Assembly: GCA_003153505.1 (NCBI GenBank)
Contig: PLZA01000019.1
Coordinates: forward strand, 4,076 to 68,075
Reading direction: 5' to 3'
Length of the DNA: 64,000 nucleotides
From: Candidatus Dormiibacterota bacterium
GTDB taxonomy: Bacteria > Chloroflexota > Dormibacteria > Aeolococcales > Aeolococcaceae
Below are positions 3,786-6,699 of this stretch, in pieces. The translations under genes and the position numbers were made by a program. The notes beneath the pieces are model-generated. The model did no database searches, was not told the DNA's origin, and saw nothing but the letters and a program-made list of their open reading frames with translations. Positions within the stretch are counted from its first letter, which is position 1. Each line of letters begins with the position of its first letter.

Positions 3786-4148
3786 CTAGCGGATCTGGCC
3801 GACCGCTGCACGCGCCGGCTCGGACATTGCCGGATTGAGTCGGTAGAACGCCCAGATGCCGAACTTGAAACTGGTCACGAAGCCGGCGTCGCGCAGCGTT
3901 GCGAGGTGGTGGCTGATCGTCGGCTGACCGAGATCGAACGCCGCGGTGAAGTCGCAGACGCAGACCGGTTCGCTCGCCGTCGAGAGGATGTGCAGGATCT
4001 GGATTCGGGTTGGGTCGCCGAGCGCTTTGTGGAGCGCTGCGAGGTTGTCCGCACGCGCATCGGGCAGTCCTGGCGCGACGGGCTGGCAGCACCCCTTGAT
4101 ACGGGCGGGTGCGAGCGCGGCCCTGGCGGCGGACGCCGCAGCGGTCAT
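3786..4148 (-). CDS. arsR: ArsR/SmtB-family metalloregulator
   Basis: wHTH 'LGDPTRIQILHILSTASEPVCVCDFTAAFDLGQPTISHHLATLRDAGFV' with the CVC As(III)-binding motif; ATGA overlap with the upstream gene fixes the start. Confidence 0.88.
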   Translation of the reverse strand: MTAAASAARAALAPARIKGCCQPVAPGLPDARADNLAALHKALGDPTRIQILHILSTASEPVCVCDFTAAFDLGQPTISHHLATLRDAGFVTSFKFGIWAFYRLNPAMSEPARAAVGQIR

Positions 4149-4663
4149 GGTGTGCGCCGCTCCATGAGCAGCACGTCCCGCCACACGCCGTTGAGCTGTC
4201 CGAGCCGCTCACGGGTCCCGACCACGCGGAATCCGCAGCGCCTGTGGAGCTCGACGCTCGCGACGTTCTCGGGGAAGATCCCGCTCTGGATCGTCCAGAT
4301 GCCGGCAGCCTCGGCGGCGGCGATGAGCGTTTCGAGGAGCCGGCGGCCGATGCCGTGGCCGCGAGCGCACGCGTCGACATAGACACTGTGTTCGAGCACA
4401 CCTGTGTACACGCAACGATCGGAGACGGGTCCCGCCGCCGCCCAGCCGACGAGCGCGCCGTCGCGCACGGCGACGAAGCGGTATTCGGGTGGATGTGTGG
4501 CCGTCCAGCACTCGAAGGGCGGGACGTCGGTTTCGAACGTGGCGTTGCCCGTGTCGATGCCCTGCACGTAGATGGCGCGCACGGCCCCCCAGTCGCTGTC
4601 GCGGAACGGTCGGATTGCGAGATCGGCCGCCACGGGCCGGGATTCAGTCTGCATGCTGCCCAT
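4145..4663 (-). CDS. arsN1: GNAT acetyltransferase, ArsN1/phosphinothricin acetyltransferase-like
   Basis: 'AIRPFRDSDWGAVRAIYVQGIDTGNATFETDVP...SVYVDACARGHGIGRRLLETLIAAAEAAGIWTIQSGIFPENVASVELHRRCGFRVVGTRERLGQLNGVWRDVLLMER'; located with arsR/arsI. Start at 4663 or 4654. Confidence 0.8.
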   Translation of the reverse strand: MGSMQTESRPVAADLAIRPFRDSDWGAVRAIYVQGIDTGNATFETDVPPFECWTATHPPEYRFVAVRDGALVGWAAAGPVSDRCVYTGVLEHSVYVDACARGHGIGRRLLETLIAAAEAAGIWTIQSGIFPENVASVELHRRCGFRVVGTRERLGQLNGVWRDVLLMERRTP

Positions 4664-4667
4664 TGTA

Positions 4668-4689
4668 TCCATTGACAGTCGTCGATGGA
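4668..4689. promoter_or_regulatory. ArsR-like operator 1 (ATTGA-N6-TCGAT core inside a 22-bp imperfect palindrome), overlapping a -35 TTGACA
   Basis: TCCATTGACAGTCGTCGATGGA; TTGACA (4672-4677)-N18-TAGGAT (4696-4701) makes a good sigma70-type promoter reading rightward. Confidence 0.65.
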
Positions 4690-4713
4690 ACGCGCTAGGA
4701 TCCGGTTGGTTCA

Positions 4714-4729
4714 ATCGACGGTCATCGAT
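4714..4729. promoter_or_regulatory. ArsR-like operator 2 (ATCGA-N6-TCGAT)
   Basis: ATCGACGGTCATCGAT: perfect 5-6-5 inverted repeat, 13/16 identical to the operator 1 core. Confidence 0.6.
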
Positions 4730-4745
4730 AGGAGGTCTGGTCACC

Positions 4746-4796
4746 ATGAGCTGTGAGTGCGGCTGCGAATGCGACGCCACCTGCGACTGCTGCTGA
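4746..4796 (+). CDS. Cysteine-rich 16-aa micropeptide MSCECGCECDATCDCC
   Basis: ATG with TAGGAGG upstream (about 4729-4735); 7 Cys in 16 residues, TGA at 4794-4796 one base before the arsI ATG (4798). Confidence 0.65.
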   Translation: MSCECGCECDATCDCC

Positions 4797-4797
4797 G

Positions 4798-5295
4798 ATG
4801 GGACGCGTACAACTCGCCCTGAACGTCGCCGATCTCGACGAAGCCGTCGGGTTCTATTCGAGGCTCTTTCAGACGGAGCCGGCCAAGCGCCGTCCCGGGT
4901 ACGCGAACTTCGCGGTGGCCGACCCGCCCTTGAAACTGGTGCTCTTCGAGAACCCGGCGCAGGCCGGCACGCTCAATCACCTCGGCGTCGAGGTGGGCAC
5001 GACCGACGAGGTGGTGAGCGCGACGCGTCGGCTCGCCGCGGCCGGGCTTGCCACCGAAGTTGAGGACGGGGTCACCTGCTGCCATGCACTGCAGGACAAG
5101 GTGTGGGTCGCGGGGGCCGACAGCCGCTGGGAGGTGTACACGGTACTTGCCGATGTCCCGCAGAATGCCGAGACGATGACGACGCAGGATTGCTGTGGCA
5201 CGGGAGCATCGGGTGACGAACCAGCGGTGTGCTGCACGACCGCCGCAGGTTCCTCGGGTGCCGGCTCGGAAGTCACGCCCACGCTGAGCGTCTGA
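4798..5295 (+). CDS. arsI: ArsI/CadI-family VOC metalloenzyme (C-As lyase-like) with Cys-pair C-terminal tail
   Basis: 'MGRVQLALNVADLDEAVGFYSRLFQTEPAKRRPGYANFAVADPPLKLVLFENPAQAGTLNHLGVEV...TCCHALQDKVWVAGADSRWEVYTVLAD'. Confidence 0.85.
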   Translation: MGRVQLALNVADLDEAVGFYSRLFQTEPAKRRPGYANFAVADPPLKLVLFENPAQAGTLNHLGVEVGTTDEVVSATRRLAAAGLATEVEDGVTCCHALQDKVWVAGADSRWEVYTVLADVPQNAETMTTQDCCGTGASGDEPAVCCTTAAGSSGAGSEVTPTLSV

Positions 5296-5301
5296 CCCGC
5301 C

Positions 5302-6699
5302 GTGCGGCTCCTGGCGATCGGCGGCAGCGACGCAGGGATCAGCGCGGCGCTCCTTGCCCGCGAGCTCGATCCCGGCGCCGACGTCGCCGTCATCGTCAGC
5401 GACGAGTTTCCCAACTTCTCGATCTGCGGCATCCCGTACTACGTGTCAGGAGAGGTACCCGACTGGCGCAATCTGGCCCACCGCACTGCGACAGACCTCG
5501 AGGCGACTGGCATGCGCCTCCATCTCGGGACGACCGCAGAGCGGATTGATGCCGATGCCCACGAGGTGGCGGTTCGCGATGCCCACGGGACGATGACCGC
5601 GATGCCATACGACGCGCTGGTCGTCGGCACCGGCGCCCGCCCTGTGCGCCCGCCGATACGAGGACTCGATTTCCTGGGACCGCGTGACGGTGTCCACGTC
5701 GTCCATTCGATGGGCGACACATTCGAGGTGATGAGCAGCCTGACGGCACACGACGCGCGCAGAGCCGTGATCATCGGCGCCGGTTATCTCGGGATCGAAA
5801 TGGCCGAGGCGCTGGTCCTGCGCGGCCTCGAGGTGACCCAGGTCGAGCAGCTCGCCGAAGTGCTGCCGACGGTCGACCCAGAACTGGGTCGGCAGGTTGC
5901 CGCGGAACTCCGCGAGCGTGGTGTCGACGTGGTGACCAGGACAGCGGTGCAGCTGATCACACGCACTGACGCGGCGGAGACGGCACGCCTCCGAGTCGAG
6001 GGCGCGTCCAGCGACGGGACGCCGTTTCAGCGCGACGCCGACATCGTCCTCGTCTTCGCGGGCGTCAAGCCTGATGTCGCGCTCGCTGAGGCTGCCGGCG
6101 CAAAGCTCGGCGTTCGAGGAGCGATCGACGTCGACCGGACCATGCGGACGAATCTTTCCGATGTGTTCGCGGCGGGCGACTGCGTCGTCACCCATCACCG
6201 TCTGCTCGGGACCACCTACGTCCCACTCGGAACGACCGCGCATAAGCAGGGCCGCATCGCGGGCGAAAACGCCCTGGGTGGCACCCGTGAATTCGCCGGA
6301 AGCCTCGGCACCCAGGTCGTCAAGGTTTTCGACATGGCGGCAGCACGCACCGGGTTGCGCGACCACGAGGCGGTGAGTGCCGGGTTCGAGCCGGTCACCA
6401 TCGGCGCGGAGGCTGACGATCACAAGGCCTACTACCCGGGCGCTCACCGGATCGCGATGCGGTGGACGGGCGACCGGCGAACGGGACGTCTTCTCGGCCT
6501 CCAGCTCTTCGGCCACCGACACGCCGAGGTGGCCAAACGTGTCGACATCGCCGCCACCGCCATCTTCAACGAGATGACTGTCGACGCGATCAGCGAGCTG
6601 GATCTCTCCTACACACCGCCGCTGGGCAGCCCGTGGGACGCTCTCCAGATCGGGGCACAGGCGTGGGTCAAGGCCGTCGCGGGCACCGCGAAGCGGTAA
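5302..6699 (+). CDS. FAD-dependent pyridine nucleotide-disulfide oxidoreductase, CoA-disulfide reductase/NADH oxidase-like
   Basis: 'LAIGGSDAGISAALLARELDPGADVAVIVSDEFPNFSICGIPYYVSGEV' (redox Cys motif), 'VFAAGDCVVTHHRLLGTTYVPLGTTAHKQGRIAGENALGG'. Confidence 0.85.
   Translation: MRLLAIGGSDAGISAALLARELDPGADVAVIVSDEFPNFSICGIPYYVSGEVPDWRNLAHRTATDLEATGMRLHLGTTAERIDADAHEVAVRDAHGTMTAMPYDALVVGTGARPVRPPIRGLDFLGPRDGVHVVHSMGDTFEVMSSLTAHDARRAVIIGAGYLGIEMAEALVLRGLEVTQVEQLAEVLPTVDPELGRQVAAELRERGVDVVTRTAVQLITRTDAAETARLRVEGASSDGTPFQRDADIVLVFAGVKPDVALAEAAGAKLGVRGAIDVDRTMRTNLSDVFAAGDCVVTHHRLLGTTYVPLGTTAHKQGRIAGENALGGTREFAGSLGTQVVKVFDMAAARTGLRDHEAVSAGFEPVTIGAEADDHKAYYPGAHRIAMRWTGDRRTGRLLGLQLFGHRHAEVAKRVDIAATAIFNEMTVDAISELDLSYTPPLGSPWDALQIGAQAWVKAVAGTAKR

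Follow-up and report, generated by a model that had tools for sequence, protein, structure and literature searches.

Directly in front of arsI, the gene for a C-As lyase, a contig of Candidatus Dormiibacterota bacterium carries a very short ORF whose predicted product is extraordinarily rich in cysteine. Is such an ORF a gene at all, and if so, does its product bind a metal(loid), or does its translation serve to regulate what lies downstream? An earlier note on this DNA raised both readings. Here we examine the ORF within the window, by which we mean the whole stretch of 64,000 nucleotides that was analysed, and compare it with relatives in other genomes.

A cysteine-rich micropeptide ORF in front of arsI

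The ORF and its neighbors are listed in Table 1. As the earlier note had described, it encodes a peptide of 16 residues with seven cysteines, MSCECGCECDATCDCC (ATG AGC TGT GAG TGC GGC TGC GAA TGC GAC GCC ACC TGC GAC TGC TGC TGA), it is preceded by a strong ribosome-binding site, and a single G separates its stop codon from the ATG of arsI. Cysteine accounts for 44% of the peptide, in CxC and CC spacing, and aromatic residues are absent; most of its relatives have the same make-up.

Table 1. Features surrounding the micropeptide ORF, in window coordinates
Feature	Position	Strand	Remarks
arsR, SmtB/ArsR metalloregulator, divergent	3786..4151	-	KGCC and CVCDF motifs; NF033788, 82.3 bits against a cutoff of 55
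GNAT acetyltransferase, ArsN1-like	4145..4654	-	NF040503, 140.9 bits, under the cutoff of 170
Operator-like inverted repeat 1, CATTGACAGTCGTCGATG	4670..4687	+	Overlaps the -35 box
Sigma-70-like promoter, TTGACA-18-TAGGAT	4672..4701	+	10/12 matches; 0.1 expected
Operator-like inverted repeat 2, AATCGACGGTCATCGATA	4713..4730	+	Between promoter and Shine-Dalgarno sequence, ending at the latter
Shine-Dalgarno sequence of the micropeptide, AGGAGG	4730..4735	+	10 nt before the ATG; duplex energy -10.9 kcal/mol
Cys-rich micropeptide ORF, MSCECGCECDATCDCC	4746..4796	+	16 aa, 7 Cys; related ORFs, codon-level purifying selection
arsI (C-As lyase, ArsI/CadI family)	4798..5295	+	NCBIfam ArsI_CadI_VOC, 184.8 bits, cutoff 116
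FAD-dependent disulfide reductase-like protein, 3' of arsI	5302..6699	+	CoA-disulfide reductase family, under cutoff

Cysteine-rich frames can arise by chance, as on the antisense strand of a His-rich repeat in G669. However, none of 100 first-order Markov copies of the window yielded seven cysteines in an sORF of 20 residues or fewer (the maximum was six), and the ORF is conserved in many species with a synonymous bias. A chance ORF or an annotation artefact is therefore hardly credible, and we conclude that the micropeptide ORF is a real gene. The window holds 1592 sORFs of 10-45 aa, and among those of them that have a Shine-Dalgarno (SD) sequence the runner-up in cysteine has three; the background of Cys-rich ORFs was taken from the window and the compared loci.

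The gene following the micropeptide scores above the equivalog cutoff of the ArsI/CadI family. Because the two inverted repeats sit beside a divergent arsR, we infer that they are ArsR-type operators. A like pair precedes the other Dormibacteria ars promoters, with repeat 1 weaker in two of them. No ArsA or ArsD was found in the examined part of this operon. The C-terminal tail of ArsI itself is Cys-rich (DCCGTGASGDEPAVCCTT, window 5180-5260), and its number of cysteines differs among relatives. In genus g1 the gene for the ArsN1-like acetyltransferase adjoins arsR; in G001 and G006, arsR and the ArsN1-like gene are on a different contig from arsI, and the arsI-linked micropeptides of these two genomes are the most degenerate of all.

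Distribution and selection of the arsI-linked micropeptide

We found arsI in 13 of 110 Dormibacteria genomes, 12 of which were used for counts at the arsI start (G042, a fragment, was left out). The earlier note had proposed a search upstream of arsI homologues, and its outcome depended on the lineage. In Dormibacteria, a Cys-rich sORF with an SD sequence of its own precedes arsI in 11 of the 12 genomes with an intact arsI start, and its stop codon lies 1-7 nt from that start. The 11 peptides are MSCECGCECDATCDCC, MDCECPDGTCPCDCGCSC, MNCDCGCDCDGTCDCECNC, MNCDCGCDCDGACDCGCNC, MECEPADGMCMCDGGGCC, MPCDCPCPCECPCVGGCL, MSCDCPCGSCPCPCGC, MPCDCPCGTCPCPCGC, MIPCDCPDGTCDCGREGG, MPCDRPCGTCPCPCGC and the degenerate MDCEPSEGTCPYPRKGL, with residue 1 given as M where the codon is GTG. 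In all contexts together, related ORFs occur in 15 Dormibacteria genomes besides that of the window. Among other bacteria, by contrast, no micropeptide precedes any of 76 arsI loci (mostly from Actinomycetota, with some from Chloroflexota and Cyanobacteria); at these loci arsI has an SD sequence of its own and mostly lies directly past an operator. The core pattern described below was likewise absent from 50 arsI-bearing genomes of other groups.

Orthologous loci without the ORF, which the earlier note had named as the evidence that would speak against the micropeptide, thus do exist, both outside Dormibacteria and, in two instances, within. G009 has an arsI with its own GGAG and without the ORF, and the copy in G001 is down to two cysteines. 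Because of these two genomes, we conclude that the micropeptide is dispensable in some lineages.

Where it is present, the micropeptide is under purifying selection at the codon level. Four independent close pairs differ by 16 synonymous and 6 non-synonymous changes, where about 24% synonymous would be expected (P=2e-6). The synonymous changes hit Cys codons (TGC/TGT) and Pro codons alike, the ORFs of the relatives vary in length by whole codons only, and a conserved core, C-[DE]-C-P-x-G-x-C-x-C, keeps Pro, Gly and Asp besides the cysteines.

Because the patterns were strict and the profile insensitive, the counts given here for the distribution of the micropeptide are lower bounds; a profile search with an 11-member alignment missed the window ORF itself as well as those of G004 and G027. 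Most of the genomes compared are draft assemblies from metagenomes. A looser, three-Cys pattern gave matches at background level, and tblastn against plasmids returned no micropeptide match. Two matches on viral contigs were rejected for want of a start codon or as a fortuitous frame, as was the sole match in 396 genomes sampled as the phylum of the Arthrobacter genome G124, which lies opposite a His-rich repeat, on its antisense strand. The G669 repeat mentioned above belongs to a transporter-like gene (L292) and reads CECPCGP repeats in antisense, which makes it a trap for searches for Cys-rich ORFs. We also set aside a PDB sequence match to the 21-aa peptide Hact-2 as weak and not meaningful (E=3).

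Probable translational coupling to arsI

The earlier note had observed that arsI has no good SD sequence of its own and had suggested that its translation may be coupled to that of the micropeptide. The first point was borne out: the duplex with the anti-SD is worth +0.4 kcal/mol for arsI in the window, against -10.9 kcal/mol for the sORF. Behind an sORF, arsI has a weak SD sequence in 8 of the 11 loci (+0.4 to -3.3 kcal/mol), and the sORFs of these loci have strong ones (-7.3 to -12.5 kcal/mol). The exceptions, with a stronger arsI SD sequence, are L005 (-9.3), L008 (-6.1) and L011 (-6.5). Where there is no sORF (n=76), the median for arsI is -8.85 kcal/mol, and 93% of the genes are at -5 or below. 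That arsI mostly has a weak SD sequence behind the sORF and a strong one without it speaks for coupling. Taken with the distribution of the ORF and the selection on its codons, translation of the micropeptide and its coupling to arsI are well supported.

The same pattern could mean that coupling is all that the ORF provides, i.e. that it supplies a ribosome site to arsI and its amino acid sequence is irrelevant. The general lack of an arsI SD sequence where the ORF is present would fit this idea, as would the degenerate copy in G001, which has lost cysteines while keeping its start, its frame and its stop-start junction. We nevertheless regard it as quite unlikely, given the strong excess of synonymous changes, the extreme cysteine content kept across genera, and the solo and terminal copies described below, which have no downstream gene to serve.

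Copies away from arsI

Copies away from arsI were located by peptide searches and by searches of arsM and arsR loci. Micropeptides precede arsM, behind similar tandem operators, in G011 (MPCDCPCGSCPCPCLASRHG), G024 (MPCDCPCGSCPCPCPCAAGR) and G020 (MPCDCPGDDCSRPCTTDGDG). In G008 the micropeptide (MIPCDCPCGSCPCPCGC) instead closes the operon: it comes after arsM, has a GGAGG to itself and is followed by a terminator hairpin. In G014 it (MDCDCPTCDCPCC) is the sole gene of an ArsR-divergent transcript, behind ArsR operators, and the next gene is convergent. An arsM-like match is present in 80 genomes, and we found the micropeptide with arsM in only four; most Dormibacteria arsM loci are without it, and the link to arsM is a minority trait.

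Two further ORFs were noticed near arsM. In L273 (G028:C176), three near-repeats of TGYTKCGATTGCCC upstream of arsM form a 35-aa ORF with seven cysteines; such a peptide may have arisen here independently. In L183 (G068:C209), an insertion at the 3' end of arsM, absent from relatives, adds AAGGAGG and VCPCGPDCPCC immediately ahead of the terminator. Whether L183 and L273 belong in the micropeptide set is uncertain, since they are missing from relatives or differ in composition.

Similar peptides beside CueR-like regulators in other Chloroflexota

In 399 Chloroflexota genomes, a sample that includes two of the Dormibacteria loci at identical coordinates, the stringent core pattern identified five further loci. 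At each of them the peptide ORF (23-36 aa) either overlaps or directly adjoins a MerR-family gene at its 3' end, and a hairpin comes after it. A CueR-like MerR was present in 11 genomes, in nine of which a separate Cys-rich micropeptide follows it; in L304 (G200:C7) the Cys-rich peptide is fused in frame to the C-terminus of MerR, and L303 has MerR without a micropeptide. The MerR-linked peptides are 23-43 residues long. The merR promoters hold TTGACCTTCC-N7-GGAAGGT or a near variant, which we take to be a CueR-type operator, and the best NCBIfam match of the regulators is CueR, under its cutoff. From the type of operator, the MerR-linked peptides most likely form a buffer for copper, a soft metal.

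Are these peptides related to those of the ars loci? Their likeness to the ars-linked peptides beyond the Cys positions was reached by none of 200 shuffles, and for this reason a common origin is likely, though short of proof; individually, two of the ten MerR-linked peptides (L297 and L300) were not above shuffles.

The Cys-rich regions of the regulators themselves deserve mention. The CxC-rich extension of MerR in L304 (DQMRMYTNGCCDCCDDADCDCSTCDCGACTCQSA) carries its own internal SD sequence and ATG, making it a sensor-micropeptide fusion. In L294, L295, L301 and L302, the C-termini of MerR are also Cys-rich (VCCCL, DACCL, VCCHQGSCCA and LCCV, respectively), and there the micropeptide ORF shares DNA with merR in a second frame, so that one stretch encodes two Cys-rich frames.

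A thiol buffer, a leader or a delivery peptide

We consider it quite probable that the micropeptide is an ArsR-induced, translationally coupled mini-metallothionein, serving to buffer As(III) and MAs(III) or to pass them on. In this model the micropeptide gene would open an operon under ArsR control, and arsenicals would relieve repression by ArsR so that the mRNA is made. Ribosomes would enter at the strong SD sequence of the micropeptide and, on reaching its stop codon, re-initiate at the adjacent arsI start, yielding peptide and enzyme together. The CxC-spaced thiols, with Asp, Glu, Pro and Gly between them, most likely bind soft trivalent arsenicals such as As(III) and MAs(III); the bound peptide would protect the cytosol, and the substrate and product of ArsI or ArsM could be held until turnover or export. 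Sites that hold As(III) by three thiols occur widely, in ArsR, ArsD, ArsM and metallothioneins (PMC11212059), and a gene-encoded artificial (Glu-Cys)20 peptide, EC20, increases the arsenic resistance of E. coli (PMC4611968).

The second reading of the earlier note was a Cys-responsive leader, in which the speed of the ribosome on the seven Cys codons would sense depletion of cysteine or thiols and set the translation of arsI. The position of the ORF directly 5' of arsI, its 44% Cys codons and the apparent coupling suit such a device, and there is a mycobacterial precedent (Canestrari et al. 2020, as cited in PMC9094748 and PMC9031893). However, the copies in G008, before a terminator, and G014, a sole gene, have nothing downstream to regulate, and a leader or attenuator fails because it is unable to explain these arrangements. 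The copies after merR and before terminators in nine genomes, and the one fused into MerR, are at odds with it as well, as is the conservation of the non-Cys residues. Shuffled sequences fold better than the leader RNA does (z=+1.67), no masking hairpin or RNA switch is evident, and no Rfam family was found within 4600-5000. Furthermore, since arsI lacks an SD sequence, stalling on the sORF should lower its expression rather than raise it, and the ORF is led by an SD sequence, unlike the leaderless mycobacterial ORFs. Above all because of the last-gene, solo and fused copies, we find a leader unlikely. We thus favor the first reading, a metal(loid)-binding peptide, with binding itself predicted from the residues.

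The earlier note had also spoken of a chaperone to ArsI, which proved too narrow because arsM and MerR are companions of the peptide too. A broader version, in which the micropeptide delivers metal to a sensor (ArsR or MerR) or an enzyme rather than buffering it, is conceivable, if doubtful. Regulators neighbor nearly every locus and one copy is fused in frame to the C-terminus of MerR (G200, L304), as one might expect of a delivery peptide; yet the partner is not conserved, being arsI, arsM, MerR or nothing besides a divergent arsR, and sequence does not separate a buffer from a chaperone.

We lean, with some reserve, toward treating the ars-linked and MerR-linked peptides of Dormibacteria and other Chloroflexota as one previously undescribed family of ribosomally made micro-metallothioneins, 13-43 aa long and sharing the core CDCPxGxCxC. 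Its members would be employed in ArsR-arsI/arsM circuits for (organo)arsenicals and in CueR-like MerR circuits for copper-like metals. If this is true, hardly any natural metallothionein known would be smaller than the arsenic versions (13-20 aa), which would also be the first with a tie to the cycle of arsenic methylation and demethylation. They may provide lineages assumed to lack glutathione with an inexpensive, co-induced buffer of thiols against trivalent arsenicals, and would fill a gap in the handling of As(III) and MAs(III) between ArsM, ArsI and efflux. It would also follow that metal-resistance operons hold genes far under the limits of gene callers. The peptides are short enough for immediate synthesis and testing, and are natural starting points for tags and sensors that bind arsenic.

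Comparison with known systems

Seven representative relatives (20-36 aa) had no Pfam match at E<=1. In the literature searched, we found neither an arsI paired with a small Cys-rich ORF nor ribosomally encoded arsenic-binding peptides of such size, and to our knowledge no peptide of the latter kind is known; the micro-metallothionein family appears new as far as that literature goes. The micropeptides have the traits of metallothioneins as a class, being short, with cysteine at roughly a quarter of the residues or more in CxC and CC spacing and few aromatics. Their surroundings, namely putative tandem ArsR-type operators with a divergent arsR and, in the MerR-linked set, a CueR-type operator before merR, would suit metal(loid)-responsive expression.

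Among bacterial metallothioneins, SmtA/BmtA and MymT are likewise small, Cys-rich and encoded beside or under metal-responsive regulators, and MymT also began as an unannotated small ORF (PMC7558416). They differ in their size, about 50 residues (4.9 kDa for MymT) against 13-20 for the arsenic-linked micropeptides, and SmtA has a zinc-finger fold. The micropeptide is linked to organoarsenical enzymes. ArsD, the arsenite metallochaperone, is another Cys-rich product of ars operons and uses three thiols to bind As(III) (PMC11212059), but unlike the micropeptide it is a folded protein and the partner of the ArsA pump.

The polycysteine leaders of mycobacteria (Canestrari et al. 2020, as described in the citing papers) are also very short Cys-rich ORFs directly before an operon. 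According to those accounts they are leaderless, contain contiguous runs of Cys codons and act in cis, always from upstream. The micropeptide, in contrast, starts behind AGGAGG, has spaced Cys codons in a CxC arrangement, and occurs also at operon ends, alone and in a fusion. On present comparisons it is therefore most likely a natural metal(loid)-binding peptide, one of the smallest, and not a regulatory leader.

Short copper metallothioneins of fungi, such as that of Neurospora crassa (about 25 aa, seven Cys), are similar in length class and CxC spacing; they are eukaryotic. Phytochelatins and EC20, (Glu-Cys)20-Gly, alternate an acidic residue with Cys much as the micropeptide does (SCECGCECD). 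Phytochelatins are made by an enzyme and have gamma-Glu links, and EC20 is man-made; the micropeptide would be their natural, ribosomally made counterpart.
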